Assembly: GCF_023566055.1 (NCBI RefSeq)
Contig: NZ_JALIQP010000001.1
Location: forward strand, 1,138,059-1,202,058
Length of the DNA stretch: 64,000 bases
Source of the DNA: Halosolutus amylolyticus
GTDB taxonomy: Archaea > Halobacteriota > Halobacteria > Halobacteriales > Natrialbaceae
Direction of reading: 5' to 3'
Below, one piece after another: positions 27,211 through 63,158 of this stretch. The notes beneath the pieces are model-generated. The model was not told where the DNA came from, did not search any database, and saw only the letters and a program-made list of their open reading frames with translations. The first letter of the stretch is position 1; the number at the start of each line of letters is the position of its first letter. Made by a program: the position numbers and the translations under genes.

Positions 27211-27295
27211 TCATACGTTTACTGTACGTCATTTCCGGCGCAACCGCGATCCGGGCGGCGGTCGCGCCGGTACATCGTTACAGCAATCCGTATCA
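27211..27295. repeat. 85-bp palindromic element, family 2, copy C
   Basis: An imperfect terminal inverted repeat (TCATACGTTTACTGTA at the left; TACAGCAATCCGTATCA at the right) encloses a GC-rich hairpin, CCGGCGCAACCG / CGGTCGCGCCGG. A second copy at 59939-60024 differs at only about five positions. The rightmost TCA, read on the minus strand, is the TGA stop of the ZIP transporter gene. It lies between converging genes. Confidence 0.85.
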
Positions 27296-45922: not shown

Positions 45923-46951
45923 ATGAGCAGTGCGGACGAGCCGATGCCGAGCGTCCCCGAGTCGGCCGGGGAGGAGTACGACGCCATGGTCGACGTCGAG
46001 TCGACGGATCCGCGGGACGAACTCGCGAAGACGACGTATCGAACCGACCTCGGCATCGAGATGGCCGAGGACGCGCGTCGCGTGAGCCGCGGCGAGCTGT
46101 CGAGCGACGCGTACTGGGAGAAGTACGACGGCGAGGCGGCCGCGGAGTTCGGCGAGGCCTACCACGAGACGCCGAACCCGGCGGTCGACTGTGCCGACGG
46201 GACGATCGACGACGAGACGGCCGAGTCGCTCGGCTGTTCGGTCGGGTCGATGGCGAGCGTCGCCGAGGCGCTCCAGGACGGCGAGGAAGGCGACGAGAGC
46301 GAGGGTGACGACGCAGACGACCCGCGCTGGGGGATGGTCATCGACCTCCAGAAGTGCATCGGCTGCGAGTCCTGTACGGTCGCGTGCAAGGCCGAGAACC
46401 GGACGCCGCCGGGCGTCTCGTACAACGTCGTCCTGGAGCGTGAGCAGGGCGAGTACCCGAACGTCACCCGGACGAACGTGCCCCGCCCGTGCATGCAGTG
46501 TGAGAAGCCGCCCTGCGTGCAGGTGTGTCCGGTTAGCGCGACGTACAAGATGGACAACGGCGTCGTGAACATCGACTACGATCGGTGTATCGGCTGTCGG
46601 TACTGCATGGTCGCGTGTCCGTACGACGCGCGGTACTTCGACTTCGGAGAGAACTACGACGGTGAATTCGAGGAAGACGGCGAGGTCACCAGTCCCGAGT
46701 ACGGGATGGACCGCGGGCCGCGCGAGGACGGCGAGTCCCCGATCGGCAACGTGCGGAAGTGTAACTTCTGTCACCACCGCCTCGAGCGCGGCGAAGAGCC
46801 GGCCTGCGTCGAGACCTGCGTCGGCGACGCCCGCTACATGGGCGACCTCGAGGATACCGACAGCGAGGTGAACGAACTGGCCTCCTCCTCCCGCGCGTTC
46901 CAGCTGAAGGAGAAGGAGGGGACCGACCCGAACGTCTACTACCTCAAGTGA
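45923..46951 (+). CDS. Iron-sulfur electron-transfer subunit (PsrB/TtrB/DmsB-like)
   Basis: This 342-residue protein has a haloarchaeal N-terminal extension of about 135 acidic residues. Four ferredoxin-type cysteine groups follow: C145-C148-C151-C155 ([13 protein letters not shown]), [31 protein letters not shown] and CNFCHHRL...CVETC. This is the four-cluster subunit that links the molybdenum subunit to the membrane. ATG 45923 is used. The NrfD gene starts 2-3 bases past its stop. It shares the operon with PsrC-like and catalytic genes. Confidence 0.92.
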
Positions 46952-46953
46952 CC

Positions 46954-48213
46954 ATGGCAACGAAAACGCACACCGTAACCGGCCGCTTGCGGGGGAATCG
47001 CCTCCGGATCGTCTGGTACGCGCTGCTCGTCGCCCTGCTCGCGATCGGCGCGTACGGCGGCTACCTGCGCGTCACCGAGGGGCTCCGATCGACGAACCTC
47101 ACGAGTGCGGTCCCGTGGGGCGCGTGGGTCGCCTTCTACATCTACTTCGTCGGCCTCTCGGCGGGCGCGTTCCTCGTGAGCACGCTCTCGAACGTCTTCG
47201 AGGTCGAGGGGATGCACGAGATCGAACGCGAGGCGCTGTTCGTCGCGATCGTCTCGATGATCGTCGCGCTCACGTTCGTCCTCGTCGACCTCGGGCGGAT
47301 GGATCGGCTCTGGCACCCCTTTGCGTGGCGACAGCCGCTGTCGGTCCTCTCCTGGGAGGTCCACGCGTACGCGCTCTACGTCGTCGTCCTCTCGGGCGAA
47401 CTGTACTTCTCGATGCGACGGGACCTCGTCGCGAGGAGCGAGGCCGAGGACGGTCTCAGAGGGCGGCTTGCCGGCCTGCTCACGCTCGGCCGGACGGACA
47501 CGAGCGATGAGGCCCTCGAGACCGATCGGACGTGGCTGAAACGCCTCGGGATCGTCGGCATTCCGCTCGCGATCGTCTTCGTCCACGGCGGCACCGGGAA
47601 CCTGTTCGCGGTCGCCGCCGCGCGGAGCTACTGGTTCAGTGCGCTGTTCCCGGTGATCTTCATCACCTCGGCGGTCGTCAGCGGGATGGCGCTGATCGCC
47701 CTGCTGTACGTCCTCCGATCGTGGCTGGGCAGCCGGACGCTCGATAGGGCTCTGCTAGAGCGCATGGCGGCGCTGTTCGTCGGCTTCGTCGTCCTCGACG
47801 CGTCGCTGAAGGTGCTCGAGGCGTTCGTCGGACTGTACAGCCTCCACCCGGGCGACGTGGAGACGTGGCTGACGATCGCGACCGGCGAGATGTGGTGGTC
47901 GTTCTGGCTCGTGATGGTTGGCCTCGGGTGGATCGCGCCGCTCGTGCTGTTACACCGGCGCGAGTGGCGCCGGCGGCCGACGTTCGTCGCCGCCGCGGGC
48001 ACGAGCGTCGTTATCGGCGTGATCGGCACCCGTTTCAACATCGTCGTGCCCGCCCAGATCGAGCCCGCGCTCTACGGCCTGCCGACGGGCTACTACGTCC
48101 CGTCGACGCCGGAGTGGCTGCTCTCGCTGGGCATCGTCGCGCTCGGCGTGCTCCTGTTTACGATCGGCACGGAACTGCTTCCGCTCGTTCCACGCGGTGA
48201 GACCCATGACTGA
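46954..48213 (+). CDS. NrfD/PsrC-type membrane anchor subunit
   Basis: This 419-residue protein with nine or ten helices has the NrfD/PsrC layout: AVPWGAWVAFYIYFVGLSAGAF near the N-terminus, PLSVLSWEVHAYAL, and VHGGTGNLFAVAAARSYWFSALFP. These proteins hold the quinone site for psr-like complexes. ATG 46954 follows the upstream TGA; GTG 46948 overlaps it and is the alternative. It precedes and overlaps the catalytic subunit gene. Confidence 0.92.
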   Translation: MATKTHTVTGRLRGNRLRIVWYALLVALLAIGAYGGYLRVTEGLRSTNLTSAVPWGAWVAFYIYFVGLSAGAFLVSTLSNVFEVEGMHEIEREALFVAIVSMIVALTFVLVDLGRMDRLWHPFAWRQPLSVLSWEVHAYALYVVVLSGELYFSMRRDLVARSEAEDGLRGRLAGLLTLGRTDTSDEALETDRTWLKRLGIVGIPLAIVFVHGGTGNLFAVAAARSYWFSALFPVIFITSAVVSGMALIALLYVLRSWLGSRTLDRALLERMAALFVGFVVLDASLKVLEAFVGLYSLHPGDVETWLTIATGEMWWSFWLVMVGLGWIAPLVLLHRREWRRRPTFVAAAGTSVVIGVIGTRFNIVVPAQIEPALYGLPTGYYVPSTPEWLLSLGIVALGVLLFTIGTELLPLVPRGETHD

Positions 48214-51200
48214 TTCGAACGCGACCCACACGGACCCCGAGATAGAACGGACGGACGAACTACCAGCCGACGGAGACGACCGGACAGCCGACGGGATCGA
48301 TCGCCGCGACTTCGTCAAGGCGGTCGGTGGCATGGGAGCGCTCTCGCTCTCCGGCGGCATCGCGAGCACCGTCTTCGACTTCGACGGCTGGTTCGGCGAC
48401 GACGGCCACGGCGTCGGCACCGAGTACGGCGACTACGAGGCGTCGGACGTCATCTACACGACCTGCGGGCAGTGTAACACCTTCTGCCCGATCAAGGTGC
48501 GGCTGGCCGACGAGAGCGGGACCGGCGAGTACAGTTCGCTCGTGCGCAAACTCGCGGGCAACCCGTACTCGTTCCTCAACACCCAGCCGAACGCGCAGGT
48601 CCCCTACGCCAGCGACCCCGAGGAGGTCGCGACCGGCGACCTGGAGGGGACCGGCGAGGTCGACACGAGCAAGTGGTCGCTCTCGGGCGGGCGCATCTGC
48701 CTGAAGGGGCAGGCCGGCATCCAGACGGCCTTCGACACCTACCGGCTGCGCAAGCCGATGAAACGCGTCGGCCCGCGGGGCAGCGACGAGTGGAAGACGA
48801 TCTCCTGGGCGCAGGCGATCGAGGAGATCGTCTCCGGCGACAACGAACTCGGCCACGACGGCCTCCAGGACCTGTGGGGCTACGCGCCCGAAGACGAGGT
48901 GATGGCCGACTGGGAGGCCGTCCAGGAGGGCGGCCTGAGCCGCGAGGAGTTCGACGAGCGATACGAGGACGTCCTGATCGACACGGACCACCCCGATCTG
49001 GGGCCGAAGGCCAACCAGATCGTCGACGTCGGCGGCTTCCGGCGCAACTTCATCCGCAACCGGCTCTGGCACCAGGGGCTGGGGTCGATCAACAGCATCC
49101 ACCACGCCGGGGTCTGCGGTCTCTCCGGCGTCATCGGGTTCAACCGATCGCACGACGGCCAGAAGAAACGCCAGTACCCCGACGTCGAGAACTGCGAATA
49201 CCTGCTGGTCTGGGGGACCAATCCGATGGTCGCGAACAAGGGGCCGACCTGGCTCGCCCCGAAACTCACGAACGCGATCGAGGACGGCATGCGGATGGAC
49301 GTCGTCGATCCGCGCCTCTCGAAGACGGCCGAGAAGGCCGACGAGTGGATCCCGGTCAAACCCGGCGCGGACGCCGCACTCGCGCTCGGGATGGCACGCT
49401 GGATCATCGAACACGAACGGTACGACGAGACGTACCTCAGGAACCCCGGCGAGGACGCCGCGACTGACGACGACGAACCGACCTGGAGCGACGCGACGCA
49501 CCTCGTGCTCGTCGACGAGGACGATCGGCCCAAGGCGCAGGCGAGCGATCTGGGGCTCGACGCGGACGACGCGGACGCGTTCGTCGCGATCGACGCCACG
49601 ACCGGCGAACCAGCGCCCGCGGGCGAGGTCGAGGAGGGCGTCCTGGACGTCGACATCACGATCGACGGCCAGGCGGTCAAAAGCGTCTGGACGCTGTACC
49701 GCGAGCGGGTCTTCGAGCACTCCCTCGCGGAGTACGCCGAGATGGCCGGCGTGAGCGTCGATCGGATCGACGAACTGGCCGACGAGTTCACGAGCCACGG
49801 CAAGCGCGCGGCGATCATGGCCTACCGCGGGCCGGCCAAGCACACGAACGGCTTCTACGCCACGCGCGCCATCTCGACGCTCCAGCACCTGATCGGCAAC
49901 TTCGACTGGAAGGGCGGCCAGATCACGCCCTACGCCGGGTACGAGACGATGAGCGGCCGGTACGAACTGGGACAGGTCCCCGATGGCCACAGTCCGTGGG
50001 GGATCCCGCTGCTCCGCGGCGGGGTCAACTACGAGGAGACGTCGCTGTTCGATCGCGACGACGGCTACCCCGCGAAGCGGCCGTGGTTCCCGGTCGCACC
50101 GCCGATGGCGACCCAGGAACTGTACGCCAGCGCCGACGACGAGTATCCCTACGGCGTCGAGGCGCTGTTCATCCGCCCGTACTCGAACAACCACGTCATG
50201 TCCGCGGCCGGCGGGGACACGATCCCCGACGTGCTAACAGACGAGGACGCGATCGGGCTGATCGTCGCCTCGGACACGGTGCTGGGGGAGACCAGCCGCT
50301 ACGCCGACTACGTCCTTCCCGAACCCACCTACCTCGAGCGCTGGGAGAACTTCGGGACCTACCCGAACAAGCGCCTGGCAGACGAGAAGATCAGCCAGCC
50401 GACGATTCGGGTCGTCCCCGACGCGCGGCCGTTCGAGGAGGTGCTGATCGACCTCTGGAAGGAACTGGACCTGCCGGGCGTCGGCGAGGACGCGATCCCG
50501 GACGCCGACGACGATCTGTGGCCGCTGGACACCGCCGAGGACTTCTACGTCAAACTCGCGACGAACATCGCGTACGATCGCGACCCGGTTTCCGACGCCG
50601 ACGACGCGGAACTCGAGGTGTTCGAGGCGGCCCACGAGAAGGGACTCGGCGAGCACTTCGACCTCGAGGACTGGAAGGGTGCCGTGACCGAGGAGGAGTG
50701 GCCCAAGGCCGTGACCGTGCTCAATCGCGGCGGTCGGTTCGAGGAGCCGATCGACGGCTACGCCGAGGCCTTCGCCGAGCGGGGCCACGACTACGACTAC
50801 GCGGGCCGCCACCCGGACACGAACGCCTACGACGGCGACCACCTGCGCTACAAACTCGCGAGTCGGGTGAACTTCTACGACGAGGTCGCCCCGACCGGGA
50901 AACACGCCTACGACGGCGAGCGGTTCGATCCGCTCCCCCGGGCCGAGGACGTCGTCCACTACGACGGCGCGGTCCAGGTCCCGGTGACGAGCGACGAGGA
51001 GCCCGATCGCCCCCTCCAGTTGACGAACTGGAAGCCCCGCACGCAGGGGATGCACCGGACGACCGGATCGGCGTGGCTCCGCGAGACGACGCCGGAGAAC
51101 GCCGTCTGGATCAACCCAGAGGACGCGGCGGATCGCGGCATCGAGAACGGCGATCGCATCCGGCTGGACGCCGGCCGCCGCACGGTCGAGGCGACCGCCC

Positions 51201-51520
51201 GCGTCACGGGCGGCATCCGGCCCGGCGTCGTCGGCACCGCCTGGGGCTTCGGACGCCAGGGTGGCGGCGCGACCGAGACGACGACCGACGGCGAGCGCCG
51301 CGAGGGTGCGACCGAGGGGTACGGCCACACCGACCACGACTATGACACGCCGGGCGAGGACACGGGCGGCTACGCGAAGGGCCGAGACGCCGGCTTCGCG
51401 GTCAACCACGTCCAGCCGCTCGACGACGAACTCGGCGACGTCGGACTGAGCGATCCGGTCGGTGGAAGCAACGCACAGTTCGCGGCCTACGTGGAGATCG
51501 AACGGGTGAGCGACCGATGA
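48206..51520 (+). CDS. Molybdopterin oxidoreductase catalytic subunit (Psr/Ttr/DMSO reductase family)
   Basis: This 1104-residue catalytic subunit has a perfect Tat motif RRDFVK at 33-38, so the complex faces outward. The 4Fe-4S ligands C87, C90, C94 and C165 (TTCGQCNTFCPIK and GRICLKG) are followed by the molybdenum region, where C304 (HHAGVCGLSG) is a candidate Mo ligand. Such a Cys would fit polysulfide, thiosulfate or tetrathionate reductase rather than DMSO reductase (Ser). The length is greater than most PsrA and near TtrA. Its start overlaps the NrfD gene end by 8 bases; GTG 48197 is an alternative. It probably reduces a sulfur oxyanion or polysulfide with electrons from menaquinol (substrate inferred). 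Confidence 0.88.
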   Translation: MTDSNATHTDPEIERTDELPADGDDRTADGIDRRDFVKAVGGMGALSLSGGIASTVFDFDGWFGDDGHGVGTEYGDYEASDVIYTTCGQCNTFCPIKVRLADESGTGEYSSLVRKLAGNPYSFLNTQPNAQVPYASDPEEVATGDLEGTGEVDTSKWSLSGGRICLKGQAGIQTAFDTYRLRKPMKRVGPRGSDEWKTISWAQAIEEIVSGDNELGHDGLQDLWGYAPEDEVMADWEAVQEGGLSREEFDERYEDVLIDTDHPDLGPKANQIVDVGGFRRNFIRNRLWHQGLGSINSIHHAGVCGLSGVIGFNRSHDGQKKRQYPDVENCEYLLVWGTNPMVANKGPTWLAPKLTNAIEDGMRMDVVDPRLSKTAEKADEWIPVKPGADAALALGMARWIIEHERYDETYLRNPGEDAATDDDEPTWSDATHLVLVDEDDRPKAQASDLGLDADDADAFVAIDATTGEPAPAGEVEEGVLDVDITIDGQAVKSVWTLYRERVFEHSLAEYAEMAGVSVDRIDELADEFTSHGKRAAIMAYRGPAKHTNGFYATRAISTLQHLIGNFDWKGGQITPYAGYETMSGRYELGQVPDGHSPWGIPLLRGGVNYEETSLFDRDDGYPAKRPWFPVAPPMATQELYASADDEYPYGVEALFIRPYSNNHVMSAAGGDTIPDVLTDEDAIGLIVASDTVLGETSRYADYVLPEPTYLERWENFGTYPNKRLADEKISQPTIRVVPDARPFEEVLIDLWKELDLPGVGEDAIPDADDDLWPLDTAEDFYVKLATNIAYDRDPVSDADDAELEVFEAAHEKGLGEHFDLEDWKGAVTEEEWPKAVTVLNRGGRFEEPIDGYAEAFAERGHDYDYAGRHPDTNAYDGDHLRYKLASRVNFYDEVAPTGKHAYDGERFDPLPRAEDVVHYDGAVQVPVTSDEEPDRPLQLTNWKPRTQGMHRTTGSAWLRETTPENAVWINPEDAADRGIENGDRIRLDAGRRTVEATARVTGGIRPGVVGTAWGFGRQGGGATETTTDGERREGATEGYGHTDHDYDTPGEDTGGYAKGRDAGFAVNHVQPLDDELGDVGLSDPVGGSNAQFAAYVEIERVSDR

Positions 51521-52203
51521 CCGCGACGACGAGTCCAGCGGACGCGGCGGTCGCCGACGCGCGCGCCGACCTGTACGACCTGCTGGCGGCCGCGTTCGAC
51601 GGCGAGACGGAGACGCTCGCGGCGGCGATCCGGGAGGGTGCGCTCGTCGACGTCGCGGCGACGCTCCCGATCGACCTCGACGTGAGCGCGCTCGACCGCG
51701 AGACCGTCGACGAGGAGGCGCTGGCGATCGCTCACGACAATCTCTTCGTCGTCCCGGGACCGCGGTACGTCCCGCCGATCGCCTCGGCCCACCGCGATCG
51801 CCCCTCGGAGTCGTTCGAGTCCGATTCGCCGTTCCACGACGAGGGGAGCGCCGGCGAGTTGCTCGGCGATCCCGCGGCGGCGATGGCCTCGCTGTACGAT
51901 CGCACGGGCGTCCGGCCGGAGCGGGGCGACTTCCCGGACCACGTCGCCGCGCAACTCGCGTTCCTCGGGGTGGCCGCGCGATCGGAGGCCCGACGGCTCG
52001 AGGACGGCGATCACGCGACCGCTGATCGGTTCCGGACGATACAGCGGGAGACGCTGTCACGGCTCGGCTGGCTCGACGCGTTCCACGAGGCCGTCGCGGA
52101 CGTCGACGGACCTGAGGGGGTCTTCACGGCGCTCGTCGCGGTGACCCGGACCGCGACGGCCTGGCACGCTCGCGACCTCGATGGGGCGGACCGGGAGCAG
52201 TAG
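51517..52203 (+). CDS. TorD/DmsD-family assembly chaperone
   Basis: This 228-residue helical protein has the TorD-like segments ARADLYDLLAAAFDG, YVPPIASAHRD and HVAAQLAFLGVAA. TorD-type chaperones bind the Tat signal of molybdoenzymes and aid cofactor insertion. Its ATG overlaps the catalytic subunit's stop (ATGA), making it the fourth gene of the operon. This supports the Tat-exported molybdoenzyme call. Confidence 0.9.
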   Translation: MTATTSPADAAVADARADLYDLLAAAFDGETETLAAAIREGALVDVAATLPIDLDVSALDRETVDEEALAIAHDNLFVVPGPRYVPPIASAHRDRPSESFESDSPFHDEGSAGELLGDPAAAMASLYDRTGVRPERGDFPDHVAAQLAFLGVAARSEARRLEDGDHATADRFRTIQRETLSRLGWLDAFHEAVADVDGPEGVFTALVAVTRTATAWHARDLDGADREQ

Positions 52204-52277
52204 CCCGGCGGACTCGCTGTACGCCGGGTTCTCCGACCGTCACACCGTCGAGGCTTGGCGCGATCGATCGCCGGGCC

Positions 52278-52895
52278 CTACCCCAGCAGGTTGGAGAGTG
52301 ACATCACGAGGAACAGGAGGATCACGGCTTCGCTGACGAGCCACGAGTTCGCGTTCATCCAGTCGCGCGCCTTCGGAAGGGCGGTTTCCGCCCGCTCGCG
52401 GAAGGCGACCAGGGCGAGCGACGGGAGCGAAAGGGCCAGAAGCGTGAGCAGGATAAACGGGACGGCGTGCACCAACGGCGCATCGCTCGCCGCCAGGTAG
52501 GAGCCGACGGTGACGGACGTGAGGATGTCGGTTGGGAAAAATCCCATGAGGAGAAAGCCGAGTCGGAACGAAAACCGCGGCGACGCCGACTGGAGCGTCC
52601 CCATCCATCGCGGCGGTTCCGACGTCGCTCGCGTCCGGTAGGTGTGGACCATCGCGAACGAGAGCGCGACGACGACGATCGCGCTGACCGTCGTGTTCGA
52701 CGCCCGCTGGCCGATCGTCCCGGTGCTGAACGCGTACGCGATCGTCACGACGAGCGTGATCGAGATGGCCGCACCGCCGACGAACGCGGCGGAGTTGCGC
52801 CGCCAGCGTTCGCTCGTCGCGAGGAAGACGGCGCTCAGGATCTGGGGGCCGCCGATCATCACGAAGACCAGCGGCAACACCTCGAGGAATCTCAT
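52278..52895 (-). CDS. GAP-family (SfLAP-like) membrane protein
   Basis: This 205-residue protein with six helices has the GAP/Sap-family pattern: N-terminal LPLVFVMIGGPQILSAVFLAT and FRLGFLLMGFFPTDILTSVTVG in the middle. Mycobacterial Gap proteins take part in glycopeptidolipid export; archaeal members are uncharacterised. ATG 52895 starts at MRFLEVLP. It converges on the TorD gene and is transcribed alone. Confidence 0.72.
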   Translation of the reverse strand: MRFLEVLPLVFVMIGGPQILSAVFLATSERWRRNSAAFVGGAAISITLVVTIAYAFSTGTIGQRASNTTVSAIVVVALSFAMVHTYRTRATSEPPRWMGTLQSASPRFSFRLGFLLMGFFPTDILTSVTVGSYLAASDAPLVHAVPFILLTLLALSLPSLALVAFRERAETALPKARDWMNANSWLVSEAVILLFLVMSLSNLLG

Positions 52896-53443
52896 GGTCC
52901 GGTCACCGCCGCGCGGGTTTCCGGGTGTCGTGCCGGGGTAGCCCTGGAGGGGTCCGTCGTCCCTGCCCGAGGGAGAGAGCCGGTGAAGGGGCCGTTTTCG
53001 TTGCCGATCGCGGATCGGTCGTCGCGGATCGAACTGCAGTTGGGGACCGACATCGACTGTCGATCGCTAGTTGGTCCCGGTCCATACTAACACTTGACCT
53101 GACCAACGGCGCTGTGTGCGTTCCGGGCGACAGATCGGATCTCCAGCGTCGAGACGATCGCCTGGCGTGCGATCCGTTGCGGGATCGGATACCGATCGCC
53201 GGCGAGGATGGCCACTGCACAGTGCCAGGTCGGATCGATCGTCTGCTGCGGTGTCTGCTCGTCGATGCGTATCCGTGGTTACCGTCCGCAGGGGGATCGG
53301 GGTTCCTCGATCGCGGTGGATTCGCCCGTGTTGCGCGTAGAAACGTCCCAAATTGCGGTTACCTCGGTTACGAACGAGGGAAAGGTTCCGTTACTGTAAA
53401 ACAGTACTCGTCCTTTTTATATCATTAGATAGATAATGAAATT
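52896..53443. other. 548-bp region without a gene; promoter of the HiPIP-like lipoprotein at the right
   Basis: The visible open frames are low in acidic residues and look like shadows. At the right end there is a TACTGT-AAA-ACAGTA inverted repeat (53392-53406), directly followed by a TATA-like CTTTTTATATC. Confidence 0.45.
53392..53406. promoter_or_regulatory. Inverted repeat TACTGT-AAA-ACAGTA next to a TATA box
   Basis: A perfect 6-bp inverted repeat with a 3-base centre abuts the TATA-like TTTTTATATC (about 53414-53423) of the HiPIP-like lipoprotein gene. It is in the place expected for an activator or repressor site. Confidence 0.5.
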
Positions 53444-54253
53444 ATGGCGCGTGATGGTTCTGGAACGAGCCGGGAATCCACCTCTCACATGTGGAGTCGA
53501 CGGCATTACCTCGTTGCGACCGTCGGTATATCGGCACTGAGTGGGTGTATCGGGGACACCGAACAGGACGAAACGGATACCGAGAACGATGACGAAGTCG
53601 AAGAGGATGACGACGAGGACGAAGCGGAAGCCGAGGAACGTCCCGAGGGCGTTTCGGAAGAGGAGTTCGCACGTGGTCCCGTGCCAGACGTCTATCTGTC
53701 GGCGACCTCGCTGGGCGGCGAAGAACGCGATCCCGACGCGTTGCAATCGAAAGCGGACGTCGACTTCTCGGAGTACGAGGAGGCCGAAGAGAACGAGGCA
53801 CATCGGGCCGGCACGTGCTGTGCGAACTGTGACGAGTTCGTCCCGGACAGGAACGGCGACGAGTTCGGTGCGTGCGTGGCGGTCGAGGGCTACATCGACG
53901 GCGCCGACTGGTGTACGATCTGGGAAGAGTTACCCGAACCCGAGGTTCCGGACGGACTGTCCGAATCGGACCTGGCGACGGCCGAGGTGCCGGAGGAGTA
54001 CCGAGCGGCGAGTTCCCAGACCGGTGAGGAGCGCGATCCCGACGACCTGCTCACCCAGGAGGAAGTGAGCCTGATGGAGTCCGTCGACGCGATCGCGGAG
54101 GAGACAGCGCCCCCAGGACAGTCCTGTGGAAACTGTGCGGAATTCATCCCCGACGAGAACGGCGACGGCTGGGGTGCCTGTGCGAGAGTGGAGGGGTACG
54201 TTGCTGTCGAAGACTGGTGTAGCGTTTGGGAACACGTCAGCGAAGAACTCTGA
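53444..54253 (+). CDS. Tat lipoprotein with two tandem HiPIP-like iron-sulfur domains
   Basis: The product has 269 residues. A Tat lipoprotein signal contains RR at 19-20 and the lipobox SGC with C35. A very acidic linker (40-70) is followed by two repeats of an HiPIP-type cysteine motif: C126-x2-C129-x14-C144-x12-C157 and C228-x2-C231-x14-C246-x12-C259. Both have C..C.EF(V/I)PD.NGD..GAC...EGY......WC, close to high-potential iron-sulfur proteins, which carry electrons in photosynthetic and respiratory chains. A two-cluster HiPIP lipoprotein is unusual. ATG 53444 is about 27 bases after TTTTTATAT. It may relay electrons outside the membrane (inference). Confidence 0.72.
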   Translation: MARDGSGTSRESTSHMWSRRHYLVATVGISALSGCIGDTEQDETDTENDDEVEEDDDEDEAEAEERPEGVSEEEFARGPVPDVYLSATSLGGEERDPDALQSKADVDFSEYEEAEENEAHRAGTCCANCDEFVPDRNGDEFGACVAVEGYIDGADWCTIWEELPEPEVPDGLSESDLATAEVPEEYRAASSQTGEERDPDDLLTQEEVSLMESVDAIAEETAPPGQSCGNCAEFIPDENGDGWGACARVEGYVAVEDWCSVWEHVSEEL

Positions 54254-54301
54254 AGGCGACGACGGTGCAGTACGATCGGCCGGTGAAGACGATCGAACCG
54301 A

Positions 54302-54733
54302 TCAGGCCGACTCGATGGCGACGTCGAGCGACGTCTCGTTCTCGACGTTGTCGGTGACCGGACACCGGTCCTCGATCGCCGCGAGCCACGCGTCGACGTC
54401 GTCCTCGTCGGCGTCGGTCTCCACGGCAATCGTTACGTCGAGGTCCTGGAGGCCGGGGCGCGCGTCGGACTGCTCGCCGCGATAGCTCGCGTAGTCGACG
54501 CCGCCCTCGATCGTCACCGTCATGTCGTCGATCGCGATGTCCATGTCGCGGGCGACCATCGTCCCCGTCGAGTTCAGACAGCCGAGGATCGCGCCGAGGA
54601 AGTACTCGACGGGATTCACGTCTTTGCCGACGACGAACTCGGCGTCGCCGGTGTCGATTCGCATCCGTTTCGGGCTGTGTCGCTCGCCGGTCAGTTCGTA
54701 CGTCGTCAGGTCGTCGGAGTCGGGTCGTGTCAT
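54302..54733 (-). CDS. OsmC/Ohr-family protein
   Basis: This 143-residue OsmC-fold protein has the two conserved cysteines in LGAILGCLNSTG and EDRCPVTDNV, plus FVVGKDVNPVEYFLGA. OsmC proteins reduce organic hydroperoxides by a thiol mechanism. ATG 54733 gives MTRPDSDDL; the open frame continues upstream without similarity. It lies next to the HiPIP-like lipoprotein and UspA, suggesting oxidative-stress protection. Confidence 0.88.
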   Translation of the reverse strand: MTRPDSDDLTTYELTGERHSPKRMRIDTGDAEFVVGKDVNPVEYFLGAILGCLNSTGTMVARDMDIAIDDMTVTIEGGVDYASYRGEQSDARPGLQDLDVTIAVETDADEDDVDAWLAAIEDRCPVTDNVENETSLDVAIESA

Positions 54734-54915
54734 CGTGTGCTGGTCGGTGGCTGGTGGGTGGTCGCGCGGGTCGATCACAGTTCGGTGTCGTCGCCGGCGG
54801 CGCCGTCCACGTCGTCAACACTCGCCGCAGTTCACTTACGTCTTGTTCGGTTTCCACAAGTCTGGGAACGAGGCCGAAGATTCGGGCCGTCGACGCGGGA
54901 GCGGGATCGGGGTCC

Positions 54916-55761
54916 TCAGGCCGTCCGCTCCGGCGGCACCAGCATGACGTTCCCGTTCGCCCGCGCGACGACGTCCTCGGAGACGCTCCCGAGCAACAGG
55001 CGACGGAGCCTGCTGTGGCCCCGCGAGCCGACGAGGATCGTCGTGGGGTCGTACTCAGCCTCCGCGGCGAGGATCTCGTCGGCTGGATCGCCCTGCCGGA
55101 CGTCGGTCCGCGTCTCGATCCCCCACTCCTCGAGCTGGGCGGCGAGTTCAGCCAGTCGCGCTTCCGGATCTTCTTCCTCAGGAAGCCCCGGATCCTTCGG
55201 CGTCTCGACGTGGACCAGCGTCGCCTCCTGCGTGGCGTGGCGCAGGTACGAGAACGCCTCGAAGGCCCGATCGGCGTTCTCGGAGAAGTCCGTCGCGTAC
55301 AGTATGCGCCGGAACAGGTGTTCCCGGACCACGTCCGGGTCGTCGGCCTCGCGTTCGATCCGGTTGACGAGCAGCGGCGTCACGGTCGTCCGTGCGAGGT
55401 TGCGCGCGGTCGAGCCGATGACGCGGTTCTCGAGCGGGCTCTTCCCGCGCGAGCCCACGATCGTCATGCTGGCACCGATCGTCTCCGCGATCCCGGTGAT
55501 GCGCCGGTGTGGCGTGCCGCGGACGACGTGGGTCTCGACCTCGAAGCCGGCGTCCTCGATGACGCGGCTGTATCGATCGAGCGCCTGCTCGCGCCGGCCT
55601 TCGAAGTCCATGCCCGGCATTCCGACGTGGACGTTCGACGGGATCACCGTCACCAGGTGGATCTCGTCGACGCCGACCCGGCCGAGACACTCGAGGCAGG
55701 TCTCGCTCTCGATCGTCGCCTCACTGGCTGCCGATAGGTCAGTCGCACAGACCGCTTTCAT
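54916..55761 (-). CDS. Universal stress protein with two UspA domains (second paralog)
   Basis: This 281-residue protein has two UspA domains (about 1-140 and 150-280). The second has a GSRGHSRLRRLLLGSVSE nucleotide loop, and the first GSRGKSPLENRVIGSTA. It starts MKAVCATDLS, with a cysteine at position 5, and has CLEC at 22-25, unusual for UspA and compatible with thiol sensing. ATG 55761 is about 27 bases from a TATA-like AATATTATA. The sulfur-regulon operator (55788-55810) overlaps that TATA box. Confidence 0.9.
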   Translation of the reverse strand: MKAVCATDLSAASEATIESETCLECLGRVGVDEIHLVTVIPSNVHVGMPGMDFEGRREQALDRYSRVIEDAGFEVETHVVRGTPHRRITGIAETIGASMTIVGSRGKSPLENRVIGSTARNLARTTVTPLLVNRIEREADDPDVVREHLFRRILYATDFSENADRAFEAFSYLRHATQEATLVHVETPKDPGLPEEEDPEARLAELAAQLEEWGIETRTDVRQGDPADEILAAEAEYDPTTILVGSRGHSRLRRLLLGSVSEDVVARANGNVMLVPPERTA

Positions 55762-55787
55762 ACTCTCTGGTAGGGTCCGACGGTATA

Positions 55788-55810
55788 ATATTGTTTGGAT
55801 CACCCAATAT
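55788..55810. promoter_or_regulatory. Sulfur-regulon operator candidate (perfect inverted repeat) at the UspA promoter
   Basis: The sequence is ATATTG-N11-CAATAT: arms are fully self-complementary and match 10 of 12 bases of GTATTG-N11-CAATAC. It overlaps the TATA-like box of the UspA gene starting at 55761, as expected for a repressor. Confidence 0.6.
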
Positions 55811-56041
55811 AGTGTCGCGTCTGTGCGTCGCGTGACGGGATCTCCGATCGGCGATCGGTTCGCGTTCGGCCCTGGCGATTGGCCTCGAGGAGGCGTCGGT
55901 TCGGTACCCAGAACGGACTGTCGCGATCGCGTGACTGATTCCGGCGCGCCCGAGCGTCGAGGCCCCTCGCCGAACGCCGGGCTATATTCACAAAACGTAT
56001 GGGAATATTCTCGTTGGATAGCCGTGTGATAGCTTGCAGTA

Positions 56042-56064
56042 ATATTGTGCGCCAGTCCCAAAAG
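56042..56064. promoter_or_regulatory. Sulfur-regulon operator candidate (9 of 12) before the DUF7512/TauE operon
   Basis: The sequence is ATATTG-N11-CAAAAG. It lies directly upstream of the TATA-like GTTATA (56066-56071). A second GTATTG at 56091-56096 lacks a partner arm. Confidence 0.4.
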
Positions 56065-56107
56065 CGTTATACGCACTCTTCGGGTAGTGAGTATTGAGCA
56101 GAAACCC

Positions 56108-56152
56108 ATGAACTACACACGATCGAATCCGGACGGGGGTCGAGACGCATGA
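56108..56152 (+). CDS. Possible 14-residue leader peptide
   Basis: An ATG at 56108 opens a 14-codon frame (MNYTRSNPDGGRDA) whose TGA overlaps the ATG of the next gene (ATGA at 56149-56152). It is the first ATG after the predicted transcription start (about 56093-56098). It may be a translational coupling leader or chance; there is no other evidence of expression. Confidence 0.3.
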   Translation: MNYTRSNPDGGRDA

Positions 56153-56295
56153 TCGACCTCGCGTCGCTTTCACAACCAGTACAGGCAGGCGTGCTCGTCG
56201 GCGCCGTCCTCGTCGAGGCGATCGTCCTCTACGTGGGCTACGGTGCCCTCGAACAGGTCGCAAAACCGCTCGTCGAGAGAATCACGCACACATAG
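56149..56295 (+). CDS. DUF7512-like small membrane protein (48 aa)
   Basis: This 48-residue protein is too short for ordinary gene calls. It begins MIDLASLSQPVQAGVLVGAVLVEAIVLYVGYGALEQ, with one helix at about 10-34. This matches my recollection of the DUF7512 small haloarchaeal family that sits before TauE-type exporters. Its TAG is followed immediately by the TauE ATG (no gap), so it is probably a transporter partner. Residue composition is normal for a haloarchaeal membrane peptide. Confidence 0.7.
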   Translation: MIDLASLSQPVQAGVLVGAVLVEAIVLYVGYGALEQVAKPLVERITHT

Positions 56296-57336
56296 ATGGA
56301 ACTGTTTGGAATCGCACTGACGCTACTCGTGCTGTTCGTGAGCTTCGGCTTCATGGTCGGCGTGCTGTTCGGCTTTTTCGGCATGGGCGGGTCGTTCCTC
56401 GTCACGCCGGCGCTCCTCGTGATGGGGTACCCCGCCCGGGTCGCCGTCGGGAGTGGGATGGCGTTCGTCTTCGGGACAGCCGTGATCGCGACGCTGAAAC
56501 ACCACGACCTCGGCCAGGTCGACTACAAACTCGGCGGATTGATGATCGTCGGGACGTCCGTCGGCATCGAGGTCGGGCGGATCGGGGTGTTCTACCTCGA
56601 GGAACTCGGCCTCGCCAGCGGGGTCATCGGCGTCACGTACGTCGTCCTGCTGGGCGCGATCGGTCTGTTCGTCACGCGCAATGCGCTCAAAAACGACGGC
56701 GAGGACGATAGCGGCGGCGGCCACCACGACGCCGCGAACGAGGAGATCGATCCGGACGCGATCCCGGACATCGCGAAGAAGATCCAGTCGTACCACGTCC
56801 CGCCGATGATGACGATCGCCGGCGGGATCCAGGTCTCGCTCTGGATGGTGCTGGGCGTCGCGTTCGTGACGGGCCTGCTGTCGGGCTTCCTGGGCGTCGG
56901 CGGCGGCTTCATCCGCATGCCCGCGATGTTCTACCTCATCGGCGTGCCCGTCCCCGTGGCGGTCGGGACTGACCTGTTCGAGATCGTCTTCTCGGGCGGG
57001 ATCGGCTCGTTCCTCTACGGGATGGAGGGTGGCGTCGATCTCACGATCGTCGCGCCCCTGCTCGCGGGGAGCGCACTCGGCGCTCGCATCGGCTCGGCCG
57101 CGACCGGTATCGTCAACGAAGCCGACATCAAGATCTACTTCGGGCTGATGCTCCTGGGTGGATCGATCGCCGTCGCGTTCCGCCAGGCTGGCGACTACCT
57201 CGGGATGGAGGTTCTGAGCACCATCAGCTTCGCGCTGATCCTGCTCTCTGCACTGATGGTCAGCGGCGCCGTGATCTACAGTACGATCACGACGATGCGC
57301 GCAGGGCCCGACGCGACTGGCGTGAGCGCGGACTGA
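56296..57336 (+). CDS. TauE/SafE-family sulfite/sulfonate exporter
   Basis: This 346-residue protein with eight or nine helices has two GFFG(M/V)GG signature repeats: GVLFGFFGMGGSFLVTPAL near the N-terminus and LLSGFLGVGGGFIRMPAMFYL in the middle. A charged Asp/His-rich loop (about 133-150) separates them. TauE/SafE proteins move sulfite, sulfonates or related organosulfur anions out. Export of sulfite made by persulfide oxidation would fit the rhodanese/MBL genes (inference). ATG 56296 follows directly on the small DUF7512-like gene. Confidence 0.9.
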   Translation: MELFGIALTLLVLFVSFGFMVGVLFGFFGMGGSFLVTPALLVMGYPARVAVGSGMAFVFGTAVIATLKHHDLGQVDYKLGGLMIVGTSVGIEVGRIGVFYLEELGLASGVIGVTYVVLLGAIGLFVTRNALKNDGEDDSGGGHHDAANEEIDPDAIPDIAKKIQSYHVPPMMTIAGGIQVSLWMVLGVAFVTGLLSGFLGVGGGFIRMPAMFYLIGVPVPVAVGTDLFEIVFSGGIGSFLYGMEGGVDLTIVAPLLAGSALGARIGSAATGIVNEADIKIYFGLMLLGGSIAVAFRQAGDYLGMEVLSTISFALILLSALMVSGAVIYSTITTMRAGPDATGVSAD

Positions 57337-57370
57337 CCGCTCGCGACGGCTCCCGCTGACCCGATCACCG

Positions 57371-57393
57371 AGATTGTACAATACCCACAAAAC
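57371..57393. promoter_or_regulatory. Sulfur-regulon operator candidate (9 of 12) at regulator 1 promoter
   Basis: The sequence is AGATTG-N11-CAAAAC, directly before the TATA-like CCCTTTTATC. Its right part (AATACCCACAAAACCCTTTTATC) closely matches the promoter of the paralogous regulator at 58020-58050, so both seem to be controlled the same way. Confidence 0.5.
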
Positions 57394-57430
57394 CCTTTTA
57401 TCGGCAGGACTCCTACGTCCACTCAGTACA

Positions 57431-57835
57431 ATGGCTAGTTCGATGGCAGAACAACTCCAGCAGGACATGCAGTGTGAAGGGCTGCTGGAGTGTATTCACG
57501 GTCTCAAACAGCTCGACAAGGACTGCTTTCGCGCGATGGTCGAAAGCGAGGAACCCCTGACGATCGACGAAGTCGCCGAGCGCGTCGATCGCGAGCGCTC
57601 GACCGCCTACCGGTCGATCCAGCGACTGCTCCAGAGCGGCTTCATCCAGAAAGAGCAGGTCAACTACGACCAGGGTGGCTACTACCACGTCTACTACCCG
57701 ACCGACCCGTCCCAGATCGCAGACGACATGCAGCGGATGTTGAACGACTGGTACGCGAAGATGGGCCAGCTCATCCAGGAGTTCGAGGACAAGTACGAAC
57801 ACGTCGACGACGGCGCACAGGCCATCGAGGGATAG
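57431..57835 (+). CDS. HTH transcriptional regulator 1 with a three-cysteine N-terminus
   Basis: This 134-residue regulator has a winged helix (about 40-90): EEPLTIDEVAERVDRERSTAYRSIQRLLQSGF then KEQVNYDQGGYYHVYY. A C-terminal helix (about 100-128) is probably for dimerisation. The N-terminal helix has C15, C21 and C32 (C-x5-C-x10-C), conserved in the paralog at 58080. This pattern suggests a thiol or sulfane-sulfur sensor. A TATA-like CTTTTATC lies about 30 bases before ATG 57431, preceded by the operator. It follows the TauE gene and is next to its paralog. Confidence 0.85.
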   Translation: MASSMAEQLQQDMQCEGLLECIHGLKQLDKDCFRAMVESEEPLTIDEVAERVDRERSTAYRSIQRLLQSGFIQKEQVNYDQGGYYHVYYPTDPSQIADDMQRMLNDWYAKMGQLIQEFEDKYEHVDDGAQAIEG

Positions 57836-57840
57836 GTCCG

Positions 57841-57878
57841 CGATCGGCCGGTCGTTCCGCGATCGGCCGGTCGTTCCG
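57841..57878. repeat. Short tandem repeat CGATCGGCCGGTCGTTCCG x2
   Basis: Two exact copies of a 19-base unit lie end to end in the spacer between the two regulators. They may be recombination relics of the gene duplication; no function is evident. Confidence 0.7.
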
Positions 57879-58019
57879 CGATCGTCGTCCCCGAGCCACG
57901 CCGGTGGAAATCAGTCGTGAGTATTGTACGATTTTTCGAGTTTCTCCCGGTCCCCAGCGGACGGCAAATCGACGCGTCCGGTGTTCGGTGAGCCCGTCGG
58001 CGAGGACCATCGCGATTTA

Positions 58020-58042
58020 GTATTGTGTAATATTCACAAAAC
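58020..58042. promoter_or_regulatory. Sulfur-regulon operator candidate (11 of 12) at regulator 2 promoter
   Basis: The sequence is GTATTG-N11-CAAAAC, ending at the TATA-like CTCTTATC (58042-58049). It also includes the tighter inverted repeat TTGTG-N7-CACAA. Another GTATTG (57921-57926) lies about 100 bases upstream. Confidence 0.6.
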
Positions 58043-58079
58043 TCTTATCACCACTCGGATCCAACGTCGACGTAGAACC

Positions 58080-58490
58080 ATGGCGAACTCGATGGCCGAC
58101 CAACTCCAGCAGGAGATGGTGTGTGAAGGGCTGCTGGAGTGCATTCACGGCCTCAAAGGACTCGACACGGAGTGTTATCGGACGCTGGTCGAGAGCGACG
58201 AGCCCCTGACGATCGACGAACTCGCGGAACGCGTCGATCGCGAGCGCTCGACCGCCTATCGATCGGTCCAGCGGCTCCACCAGAGCGGCTTCATCCGGAA
58301 AGAGCAGGTCAACTACGACCAGGGTGGCTACGTGCACGTCTACTCGCCGGCGGACCCGTCCCGGATCGCGAGCGACATGCAACGAATGGTAAACGACTGG
58401 TACGCGAAGATGGACGGTCTCATCCAGGCGTTCGAGGAGGAGTACGACGGCGCCAGTGTCGACCACGACGCGATCGCGCCGGAGGACTAG
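58080..58490 (+). CDS. HTH transcriptional regulator 2 with a three-cysteine N-terminus (paralog)
   Basis: This 136-residue paralog of the gene at 57431 has the same winged helix (LTIDELAERVDRERSTAYRSVQRL), the same QVNYDQGGY strand, and C15, C21 and C32 at identical positions. The two differ mainly in the C-terminal tail. ATG 58080 gives MANSMADQLQQ. The gene is followed by a peptidase with a 4-base gap. Together they may form homo- or heterodimers reading sulfane sulfur and repressing GTATTG-N11-CAATAC promoters, including their own (inference). Confidence 0.85.
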   Translation: MANSMADQLQQEMVCEGLLECIHGLKGLDTECYRTLVESDEPLTIDELAERVDRERSTAYRSVQRLHQSGFIRKEQVNYDQGGYVHVYSPADPSRIASDMQRMVNDWYAKMDGLIQAFEEEYDGASVDHDAIAPED

Positions 58491-58494
58491 CGCC

Positions 58495-59742
58495 GTGACC
58501 GTTCCGGTCGTCGATCGCGACGTCTCGCGGGTCGACCTCGCCGAGACGACGCTCGATCTCGTCGCGTTCGACACGTCCAACCCGCCCGGCGACACCCGCG
58601 AGATCGTCGCATGGCTCGAATCGACGGTTCGCGATCTCGGGATCGAGACCGATCGGTTCGTGGCCGACCCGACGAAACCGAACCTGCTCGCGACGATCCC
58701 CGGCGAGCGCGAGACGACGCTGCTCTTCAGCGGACACCTCGATACGGTCCCGTTCGACCCCGACGGCTGGTCGTTCGACCCGCTCGGGGAACGCGTCGAC
58801 GACCGCATCTACGGCCGCGGGACGACGGACATGAAGGGTGCGATCGCCGCGATGCTCCACGTCGCCCGCACGTACGCCGACACCCGTCCGCCGGTAACGT
58901 TGGCGTTCGCGTTCGTCAGTGACGAGGAGGTCGGCGGCGACGCCGGCGTCGCGGCCCTGCTCGAGGCCGATCGACTCGACGCCGACGCCTGCGTGATCGG
59001 CGAACCGACCTGCACCGCGGACGCCCGCTCGATCACGGTGGCCGATCGGGGAAGCATCTGGCTCACGCTCGAGGCGACCGGCGAGGCCGCCCACGGCTCG
59101 CGACCGATGCTCGGCGAGAACGCGATCGATCGCCTCTGGGGGGCGATCGAGACGGTCCGGACGCGACTCGAAAGTCGATCGCTCGCGATCCCGGACCCGG
59201 TCGCGCCGATCGTCGAGGAGTCCGTCGACTACTACGCACCGTCGATGGGCGCGGGCACCGCACGACGGCTGTTCGAGCGCCCGACGGTCAACCTCGGCAC
59301 GATCGCGGGCGGCGAGAACGTCAACAGCGTGCCGCGACACGCGAGCGCGCGACTGGACGTCCGCCTCACTGCGGGCGTCGAGACGCCGGCCGTCCTCGAC
59401 GAGGTTCGCGAGTGGATCGACGACCACGAGGGCGTGTCGATCGCGGACGCAAGCTGGAGCATCGGCAGTTACGAGGACCCGGATGCGCCGATCGTGACCG
59501 CGACGCGAGCCGTCGCGGCGGACGTACTCGACGATCGCGTCCACCGCCGGAGCGCGACGGGCGGCGGCGATGCGAAGCGGCTCCGGAACGCGGGGGTTCC
59601 GACGATCGAGTTCGCCGCCGGGACCGGTACGGTCCACGCCTGCGACGAGTACACGACCGTCGACGCCCTCGCGGCGACCGCAGAGACGTACTCCCGATTG
59701 CCGGCCGCGTTCGCCGCCCGACTGGACGAAACCGAACGATAA
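58495..59742 (+). CDS. M20-family metallopeptidase (ArgE/DapE-like)
   Basis: This 415-residue protein has the M20 features: LLFSGHLDTVPFD with the first metal histidine, GRGTTDMKGAIAAML, FVSDEEVGG with the catalytic Glu, CVIGEPTC, and a C-terminal metal His in FAAGTGTVHACDEY. It hydrolyses an amide such as an N-acyl amino acid or succinyl-diaminopimelate; which one is not clear. GTG 58495 is used with an upstream GGAGGA; the gap from regulator 2 is only 4 bases, so the genes may be co-transcribed. Confidence 0.88.
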   Translation: MTVPVVDRDVSRVDLAETTLDLVAFDTSNPPGDTREIVAWLESTVRDLGIETDRFVADPTKPNLLATIPGERETTLLFSGHLDTVPFDPDGWSFDPLGERVDDRIYGRGTTDMKGAIAAMLHVARTYADTRPPVTLAFAFVSDEEVGGDAGVAALLEADRLDADACVIGEPTCTADARSITVADRGSIWLTLEATGEAAHGSRPMLGENAIDRLWGAIETVRTRLESRSLAIPDPVAPIVEESVDYYAPSMGAGTARRLFERPTVNLGTIAGGENVNSVPRHASARLDVRLTAGVETPAVLDEVREWIDDHEGVSIADASWSIGSYEDPDAPIVTATRAVAADVLDDRVHRRSATGGGDAKRLRNAGVPTIEFAAGTGTVHACDEYTTVDALAATAETYSRLPAAFAARLDETER

Positions 59743-59938
59743 CGGCACATCTGTTCTCCGCTTACGTCGGTCGTGGCACCCTCGAGACGGTGTGTGATCC
59801 GTCTTCGTCGCGTCTCCGGCCCGTCCGGCGGTTATCCGTCGTCGGTTCCGATCGCCGGGAGTCCGCGCATCGGTCGACTCCGTCGCGCCGATCGCGCCGA
59901 GACTTTCGAGGCCGGCGAGCAGTTCCCGTCGACGTCTC

Positions 59939-60024
59939 TCATACGGTTTACTGTACGTCATTTCCGGCGCAACCGCGATCCGGGCGACGGTTGCGCCGGT
60001 AACTCGTTACAGCAATCCGTATCA
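59939..60024. repeat. 86-bp palindromic element, family 2, copy D
   Basis: It is nearly identical to copy C (27211-27295): same ends TCATACGG / CCGTATCA, same CCGGCGCAACCG hairpin, here fully paired (CGGTTGCGCCGG). It sits between the converging peptidase and SCO genes. The terminal TCA supplies the TGA stop of the SCO gene on the minus strand, as copy C does for ZIP. Confidence 0.85.
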
Positions 60025-60705
60025 GGCGGTCGCCACGGTTTCGAAGTCGTCGACGACGCGCGCGACGTCGATCGTCGCTCCGTCCGGGTAAACGCGCTCG
60101 ACGAGTCCGCGATCGTTGACCAGGAAGATGTAGGCGTAGTGGGGGAACATGTACTCGAGGTTCTCGTAGTCCTCGGCCGGTCGCTTCTCGAGAGGGAGGC
60201 CGAACTCGTCGCCGACGATGTCTTTCGCCGCCTCGTACGTTTCCGGCCGCAGGAAGTGCCAGTTCCCGGCCTCGAGGTCGACGCCCTGTTGGTCGGCGTA
60301 CGTACGAAGTACGTCCGGGGTATCCCGCTCGGGATCGAACGTCATCGCGAGGAACGCGACGCCGTCGCCGAACCCCTGTTCGGCGGCGACTTCCTGTGCC
60401 CGCCGGAGTCGCAGTAGCAGCGCGGGACACACCCCGTCCGGGCAGTTCGTGTAAAAGAACGTCAGCAGGACGGTCCGATCGCCCTCGAACTGGGCCGTCG
60501 AAATCTCCTCGTCGCGCAACGGGTCCGGGACACTGACCGCGGGGAGGTCGTCGCCGTAGCTGGGATGGGTCGCCTCGCTCAGGTCCCGCTCCGGGGCGTC
60601 GAGTACCGTGTTCCCGTCGTCGAAACCCGGGAGCGACCCGAGACAGCCCGCAACGGCCCCGACGCTCGACACGGCGGCCGAACGAAGGTAGTGACGTCGA
60701 TTCAT
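60022..60705 (-). CDS. SCO1/SenC-family lipoprotein
   Basis: This 227-residue protein has a lipoprotein signal (RRHYLRSAAVSSVGAVAGC, C21) and a thioredoxin-like SCO domain with FFYTNCPDGVCPALL. The copper motif is C88-x4-C93, one residue longer than the usual C-x3-C. The third ligand region MFPHYAYIFLVN has the expected His. SCO proteins deliver copper to cytochrome oxidase or act as thiol reductases. Start ATG 60705; the stop comes from element copy D. It is divergent from the second rhodanese/MBL gene. Confidence 0.85.
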   Translation of the reverse strand: MNRRHYLRSAAVSSVGAVAGCLGSLPGFDDGNTVLDAPERDLSEATHPSYGDDLPAVSVPDPLRDEEISTAQFEGDRTVLLTFFYTNCPDGVCPALLLRLRRAQEVAAEQGFGDGVAFLAMTFDPERDTPDVLRTYADQQGVDLEAGNWHFLRPETYEAAKDIVGDEFGLPLEKRPAEDYENLEYMFPHYAYIFLVNDRGLVERVYPDGATIDVARVVDDFETVATA

Positions 60706-60824
60706 ATCTGGGGCTTGCGGTCCGTCTCGTAAATCGTCTCCGACGGTTTGCCGCTCGAGCAAATCTCCCGATCGGTCTCGCAGTCGCGGTCTCCAACCAA
60801 CGGATTTACTACCTGCCTCCGGTA

Positions 60825-60847
60825 GTATTGGGTTAAATGAGCAATAC
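60825..60847. promoter_or_regulatory. Sulfur-regulon operator candidate, perfect GTATTG-N11-CAATAC, at the second rhodanese/MBL start
   Basis: This is the best match in the window: arms are 6 of 6 on both sides. It spans the start codon (ATG 60837), with a TATA-like GGATTTACTA about 30 bases before the ATG. Binding here would physically block a leaderless transcript, implying repression. Confidence 0.65.
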
Positions 60848-61958
60848 AGATATCGAACCTTCGGCGGTCGCCCGACGCATTCACGACGACGATTCGGCGG
60901 ACCTCTTCGTACTCGACGTCAGGAACGAGGCCGACTACGAGGAGTGGCGGATCGACGGGAGCCTGAACGTCCCCATCTACGACGACCTGCTGTCGTACGA
61001 CTACTCCACGCTGGAGACACACCTCGACGACCTGCCCGCGGAGACGGAGATCGCCGTCGTCTGCGTCGCCGGGATCACTTCGGCCCGCGCCGCGGAATTC
61101 CTCCGCCAGCACGGGTTCGACGCGAGGTCGGTCGCCGACGGGATGAACGGCTGGGGGCGCGTCCACCGCGCGTCCGACGTCGATCGCGTCGACGGCGTCG
61201 TCCAGATCGTCCGCCCCGGGACGGGCTGCGTTTCGTACCTCGCCCACGACGGCGATCGGGCCGTCGTCGTCGATCCGAGCCAGTACGTCGATCGGTACCT
61301 GGACGCGGCCGACGAGCGCGACCTCGAGATCGTCGGCGTCGCTGACACGCACGCCCACGCCGACCACGTCTCGGGCGCGCGCCGCCTCGCGGGCGACCTC
61401 GACGTACCGTACTACCTCCACGGGGACGACGCCGGCGACCTCGACGTGGCCGAACTCGAGGACGGCGAGACGATCGCCGTCGGAGACCGGGCTCTCGAGG
61501 TGCTCCACACGCCGGGACACACGCCCGGGAGCGTCTCGTTCCGGTTCGGCGACGCCCTCCTCGCCGGGGACACGCTGTTCCTCCGCAGTGTCGGCCGTCC
61601 CGACCTCGAGGATAGCTCCGACGACGCCGTCCGAGAGGCCGCGAGCCTGTTGTTCGACAGCCTCGATCGCCTGACGGCGTTCGACGACGGGACCGTCGTG
61701 CTCCCCGGGCACTTCAGCGACGAGTCGATCCGGCCGCTCGCGACCGAACTCGGCGCGCTCCGGGCGGAGACGACGAACGAACTCCTGAGTTACGTCGCGG
61801 ACGGCGACGAGCCGGCGTTCGTCGAGACCATCGTCGAGAGCCTTGCGGACGAGCCGGCAAACTACAACGAGATCAAGCGGATCAACTGGGGAGAAGAACA
61901 ACCCGGCGGCGACGTCGAGGCGCTCGAACTGGGGCCGAACAACTGCGCCGCGAACTAG
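60837..61958 (+). CDS. Rhodanese / metallo-beta-lactamase fusion (second paralog)
   Basis: This 373-residue protein has a rhodanese domain (about 8-115) with AVVCVAGITSARAAE, active C76, and an MBL domain (about 120-330) with H172-x-H174-x-D176-H177 (DTHAHADHVSGA), TPGHTPGSVSF and LAGDTLF. It ends in ELGPNNCAAN, the same cysteine tail as the first copy at 23695. Its active loop CVAGITS differs from CAKGGAS of the first, so the two may take different sulfur donors. It probably oxidises or moves persulfides. The operator at 60825-60847 overlies its start. Confidence 0.88.
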   Translation: MSNTDIEPSAVARRIHDDDSADLFVLDVRNEADYEEWRIDGSLNVPIYDDLLSYDYSTLETHLDDLPAETEIAVVCVAGITSARAAEFLRQHGFDARSVADGMNGWGRVHRASDVDRVDGVVQIVRPGTGCVSYLAHDGDRAVVVDPSQYVDRYLDAADERDLEIVGVADTHAHADHVSGARRLAGDLDVPYYLHGDDAGDLDVAELEDGETIAVGDRALEVLHTPGHTPGSVSFRFGDALLAGDTLFLRSVGRPDLEDSSDDAVREAASLLFDSLDRLTAFDDGTVVLPGHFSDESIRPLATELGALRAETTNELLSYVADGDEPAFVETIVESLADEPANYNEIKRINWGEEQPGGDVEALELGPNNCAAN

Positions 61959-61963
61959 CGTCG

Positions 61964-63152: not shown

Positions 63153-63158
63153 GAACAG
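63145..63158. promoter_or_regulatory. Perfect palindrome CTGTTCATGAACAG covering the MNT start codon
   Basis: This 14-base perfect palindrome includes the ATG of the HTH-MNT gene. A GAACAG copy at 63134-63139 forms a second inverted pair with CTGTTC. It is the expected operator of an autoregulating antitoxin. Confidence 0.6.

Follow-up and report, generated by a model that had tools for sequence, protein, structure and literature searches.

The 64,000-nucleotide stretch of the Halosolutus amylolyticus genome analysed here (hereafter the window) holds, at 53444..54253 on the plus strand, an open reading frame of 269 amino acids encoding a lipoprotein with two high-potential iron-sulfur protein (HiPIP) domains in tandem. 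The PF01355 (HIPIP) profile matches it over two stretches with E = 3.1e-12, and full-length orthologs exist. Near the start of the chain lies a predicted Tat lipoprotein signal peptide (residues 16-35, 53489..53548, plus strand), in which the sequence MWSRRHYLVATVGISALSGC contains both a twin arginine (SRRHYL) and a lipobox (LSGC) with C35 as the putative lipid anchor. It is followed by an acidic linker of 31 residues (residues 36-66, 53549..53641, plus strand), 65% of them Asp or Glu, which varies in length and sequence among orthologs. Domain N spans residues ~78-161 (53675..53926, plus strand) with cysteines 126, 129, 144 and 157 and an extra cysteine at position 125, and domain C spans residues ~180-263 (53981..54232, plus strand) with cysteines 228, 231, 246 and 259. 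The mature protein carries roughly 67 net negative charges.

A search of the 64-kb window in all six reading frames found just two instances of C-x2-C-x14-C-x12-C, both in this protein, and a chance occurrence is therefore excluded. Both cysteine sets end in DWC and lie 102 residues apart, which agrees with the initial annotation, where two such sets ending in WC had been placed about 100 residues apart in one chain. Its proposal of a Tat lipoprotein signal and an acidic linker is likewise borne out, as far as sequence can tell, by the twin arginine, the lipobox cysteine and the composition of the linker. A membrane-tethered surface protein with two HiPIP units fused in one chain is thus a well supported prediction.

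Both domains score above the curated PF01355 cut-off of 22 bits (25.0 bits for domain N and 34.2 bits for domain C), and the whole protein reaches 47 bits. When the full tandem protein was compared with the PDB by phmmer, its C domain found the HiPIP 3h31 with E = 5.1e-6. A domain profile built from N and C domains together with those of Haloferax and further single domains retrieved 15 PDB sequences at E <= 0.1, every one of them a HiPIP with 3h31 as the best (3.7e-9), in alignments that span the four cysteine ligands and the terminal WC. AlphaFold2 models of the tandem HiPIP reached a pLDDT of 42.0 from one sequence and 36.8 from 24 aligned sequences, and both were too poor for use. The profile scores, the match to solved HiPIPs and the conserved orthologs support the earlier reading of two HiPIP domains in one Tat lipoprotein.

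The four-cysteine spacing ends in an aromatic-Cys pair in both domains, and export, which is typically Tat-dependent in HiPIPs, is predicted from the RR and the lipobox GC found in every one of 24 aligned tandem proteins. Solved HiPIPs (PF01355; 3h31, 1hpi and 1b0y) share with the tandem protein the C-x2-C pair, the third cysteine and the WC, as well as conserved aromatic residues and, by prediction, the extracytoplasmic location and Tat export. Those found have one domain, whereas the tandem HiPIP has two and is, in addition, lipid-anchored, acidic in its tether and highly negative at its surface. With two full ligand sets it departs from one cluster per chain, a usual feature of the family rather than a strict requirement, and the second domain marks a variant without excluding the protein from the HiPIP family. 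HiPIPs typically enclose the cluster in a hydrophobic, aromatic cage. The aromatic residues before the third cysteine, in the WC pair and three positions after the fourth cysteine are taken, from alignments and general knowledge of the family, to match near-cluster aromatic positions of purple-bacterial HiPIPs. The canonical tyrosine close to the N-terminus of purple-bacterial HiPIPs has no clear equivalent, its likely position by alignment being Phe108 in domain N and a non-aromatic residue in domain C, and the aligned equivalents of Tyr19 and Phe66 are Phe or non-aromatic.

Two-domain homologs, the search for which had been suggested together with the first reading, are widespread. Of 391 genomes chosen throughout the class, 84 contain PF01355 and at least 25 have the tandem version, 24 recognised by reading of open reading frames and one (G214) by a full-length profile search. 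In the family to which the window belongs, 12 of 125 genomes gave a full-length match (E below 1e-129), while within its genus one of three genomes carries the tandem form and the other two only single-domain HiPIPs. Carriers include Halolamina, Salinigranum, Natronomonas, Haloarchaeobius, Natrinema, Haloterrigena, Halobellus, Halorubellus, Halalkalirubrum, Salinibaculum and Haloferax profundi. Plasmid-borne relatives in PLSDB were partial matches only, the annotated ones being named high-potential iron-sulfur protein or NosL. The patterns used for scanning the genome collection were derived from haloarchaeal sequences, and these distributions apply to haloarchaea. Such patchy presence implies that loss or transfer must be common and that respiration can proceed without the tandem HiPIP.

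A tree of 112 single domains (97 columns) was built with 200 bootstrap trees. In it, 30 N domains group together with support 100/100, as do 30 C domains with 99/98, each clade being recovered in 100% of the bootstrap trees. These separate clades point to a single, old internal duplication that preceded the spread of the family. Three double-domain proteins of Haloferax fall outside both clades, within a Haloferax group that is otherwise single-domain; L058, one of the three, has halves that are sisters of each other. Haloferax mostly has one domain and seems to have undergone a second doubling, independent and recent, by the evidence of the tree. Since the columns are few, the finer branching is not trusted.

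Altogether 33 distinct tandem proteins were read, and the 24 of these in the alignment have all eight cluster cysteines invariant. F141, W/F243, the DWC tryptophans W156 and W258, and W/Y160 and W/Y262 are conserved among them as well, so that the three aromatic positions (before the third cysteine, in WC and after the fourth cysteine) are kept in both domains. Selection on both clusters would be expected to leave such a pattern, and its persistence while the window protein shows no more than 46% identity between domains N and C (89 aligned positions) argues for long-term constraint. It may be imagined that the second domain is a neutral by-product, one cluster working while the other domain serves as a spacer or stabiliser, and the Haloferax orthologs that work with one domain, along with the recent re-doubling in that genus, lend this idea some credit. 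However, no degenerate second domain was seen among the tandem proteins read, and both ligand sets are complete in 24 of 24 aligned proteins although the domains are old and diverged; we find neutrality quite unlikely. That many relatives have kept the double protein suggests instead that the second cluster is useful and no accident.

Preceding the tandem gene, at 45923-52203, the window contains an operon with an FeS subunit (TtrB-like), NrfD, a Tat-type molybdopterin subunit (TtrA-like) and a TorD-like chaperone. The TtrA-like subunit carries a Tat-like motif, RRDFVK, and its best NCBIfam match is TtrA with 379 bits against a cut-off of 1750; as the TtrA and TtrB models both match the operon subunits far below their cut-offs, the substrate of the operon is uncertain. 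The location of the tandem gene near a Tat-exported molybdoenzyme operon had been pointed out in the initial annotation, and the proximity is real, with the operon ending 1.24 kb away. This physical closeness and the TtrA likeness would favour a tandem HiPIP acting as dedicated electron donor or acceptor of a TtrABC-like molybdoenzyme, the two together respiring a sulfur oxyanion or a comparable substrate as a single unit. But the implied partnership did not stand. An opposite-strand SfLAP gene (52278-52895) lies in the interval, the operon was found beside none of the other tandem loci read, and a TtrA ortholog (>= 75% identity) is present in 4 of 21 tandem genomes including that of the window, in the other three on a contig different from that of the tandem gene. 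Moreover, the NrfD/FeS module of the operon is, from what is known of these families, presumably already a quinone-linked route. With neighbours not conserved and the operon missing or unlinked elsewhere, the partnership was rejected and is regarded as very unlikely.

The remaining surroundings are equally variable. Apart from HiPIP itself, no gene cluster is common to more than five tandem loci. The tandem gene precedes OsmC, Usp and TauE genes in the window, it adjoins a SufS-like gene in two Halolamina-type genomes (a scan of one of them showed a NifU-like gene to come next), and in a Natronomonas locus (L036) a plastocyanin-family Tat-lipoprotein gene lies 43 bp downstream of it. Lack of conservation among the neighbours indicates no partner, and settings as scattered as these are more in keeping with a general carrier than with a dedicated subunit. 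Participation in denitrification was also considered and rejected; Cu nitrite reductase exceeds its cut-off in 208 of 391 genomes versus about 14 of 21 tandem genomes (E-values read), which is no clear enrichment.

A role in reduced-sulfur oxidation or detoxification, where electrons released by oxidation of sulfide or persulfide would enter the chain via the tandem HiPIP, could be read from a grouping of Usp, TauE/SafE and a metallo-beta-lactamase/rhodanese gene near the tandem gene, and the bacterial Hip of Acidithiobacillus has been tied to reduced-sulfur oxidation (PMC10879576). The grouping is, however, confined to three of about 27 loci, namely the window plus L033 and L064 from one other genus; L046 has only Usp in common with these, and the remaining loci lack the grouping. 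With so few occurrences it may reflect local shared gene order, and we judge the sulfur role unlikely. The nearby stress genes Usp and OsmC of the window might alternatively hint at a surface redox or oxidative-stress sink or sensor that shuttles no electrons, as might the extra cysteine beside the first ligand of domain N (C125, 53816-53818), which is present in 20 of 24 tandem proteins. Yet the protein has no signalling domain and the HiPIPs of known function are electron carriers, making such a role exceedingly improbable.

Further haloarchaeal HiPIPs were encountered outside the tandem group. Single-domain lipoproteins annotated as high-potential iron-sulfur protein have the same Tat lipoprotein layout and domain as the tandem protein, and those of Haloferax (L099-L110) have the lead-in ELPEGVSEEEF in common with it. 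They differ in having one domain, and some are fused to a NosL or plastocyanin-like domain. In L020 (1270-2151) a single HiPIP and a NosL domain, confirmed by Pfam, share one Tat lipoprotein, and seven further loci (L004, L023, L027, L047, L052, L055 and L070) have HiPIP-NosL fusions by sequence likeness; these fusions hint that HiPIP may take part in maturing nitrous oxide reductase or in delivering copper. The lipoprotein of L072 (9645-10412) has a plastocyanin-like domain (21.3 bits to PF00127, cut-off 21.2) after its HiPIP domain, which would combine iron-sulfur and copper centres in one chain, and a cytochrome-oxidase-like gene pair was read from the sequence ~2 kb upstream. The HiPIP of this locus belongs to a separate single-domain subgroup with those of L040, L041 and L039, the last from the genome of the window itself (contig C2, near 203600). 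At these four loci (4/4) the HiPIP gene lies beside a divergently transcribed FeS subunit with 30-35% identity to the TtrB-like protein of the window.

The fusions to NosL or a plastocyanin-like domain, together with the plastocyanin-family neighbour in L036, point to electron transfer at the cell surface. We consider it probable that the tandem HiPIP is a Tat-exported lipoprotein in which each domain carries one [4Fe-4S] cluster cycling between 2+ and 3+ at high potential. Most likely it works as an electron carrier with two clusters, tethered at the surface, and would be the iron equivalent of lipid-anchored halocyanin. One may envisage that the chain folds and acquires its clusters in the cytoplasm, is exported folded by Tat and is then lipidated at C35. 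The acidic linker would form a tether of ~30 residues and leave the two-cluster head mobile over the outer membrane face. There the head could accept electrons one at a time from a membrane donor, quinol-oxidising or otherwise, and hand them to a terminal oxidase, a reductase or halocyanin. The possession of two clusters might allow two electrons, those of one menaquinol, to be held at once, or allow donor and acceptor to be bridged without dissociation. The sequence establishes the domain identity, the conservation of cysteines and aromatics, the export signal, selection on both ligand sets and an old duplication that was retained; we infer the cluster content, the redox role, the tether and the donor and acceptor.

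Two known systems offer parallels. Diheme cytochromes of the c4 type have two one-electron centres in a duplicated chain, as proposed here, but they are heme proteins and the parallel is one of analogy only. Halocyanin resembles the tandem HiPIP as a membrane-tethered one-electron carrier at the outer face of haloarchaea, with the same proposed job; it differs in being a copper cupredoxin of unrelated fold with one redox centre, and the likeness is functional only. It is the established or assumed one-electron carrier of haloarchaea and has been described as lipid-anchored, and electron flow where an equivalent of complex III is absent has been called unresolved (PMC8305020). In the open-access literature searched, we found no paper that deals with tandem HiPIPs or assigns a carrier role to haloarchaeal HiPIPs. 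The one literature mention for Haloferax mediterranei is that of HFX_6278, an entry in a microarray list. Respiratory one-electron carriers of haloarchaea are poorly mapped, and the tethered double HiPIP is a concrete candidate which the papers searched do not describe. One may speculate further that haloarchaea, where halocyanin rather than cytochrome c is assumed to carry single electrons, also use it as an iron-based alternative which takes both menaquinol electrons or bridges donor and acceptor, a suggestion we hold to be possible if somewhat doubtful. If true, it would help to explain by what route menaquinol passes on its electrons in haloarchaea lacking an equivalent of complex III. The protein is also of interest as a natural two-cluster HiPIP, apparently arisen twice by duplication, that could serve as a model for two high-potential clusters per chain.

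Upstream of the coding region, a TATA-box-like element (TTTATAT, 53416..53422, plus strand) lies ~25 nt before the ATG. Its spacing is compatible with what one would expect of a leaderless haloarchaeal transcript. Upstream of this element, a 15-bp palindrome of doubtful function, TACTGT-AAA-ACAGTA (TACTGTAAAACAGTA), occupies 53392..53406 with no strand assigned. Its position beside the TATA box had been noted before, and the palindrome is real and exact, whereas a regulatory site is not supported. The palindrome was not found upstream of tandem orthologs and 47 perfect palindromes of the same 6-3-6 geometry occur within the 64-kb window, and it was rejected as a regulator site. No other exact copy exists in this genome; two sites, both on contig C7, come within one mismatch of it. 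Matches with three mismatches number 14 in the window against 3.45 expected, an excess that derives in part from a dispersed repeat. This repeat is an imperfect palindrome of 79 bp at 27218-27296 and 59947-60025 that forms a strong hairpin as DNA (z = -5.2), and no Rfam match was obtained within 50000-64000 of the window. It looks like a REP- or MITE-like element, with diverged copies in a few relatives and, in this genome, at least 40 copies of 91-100% identity (40 of 177 candidates scored).
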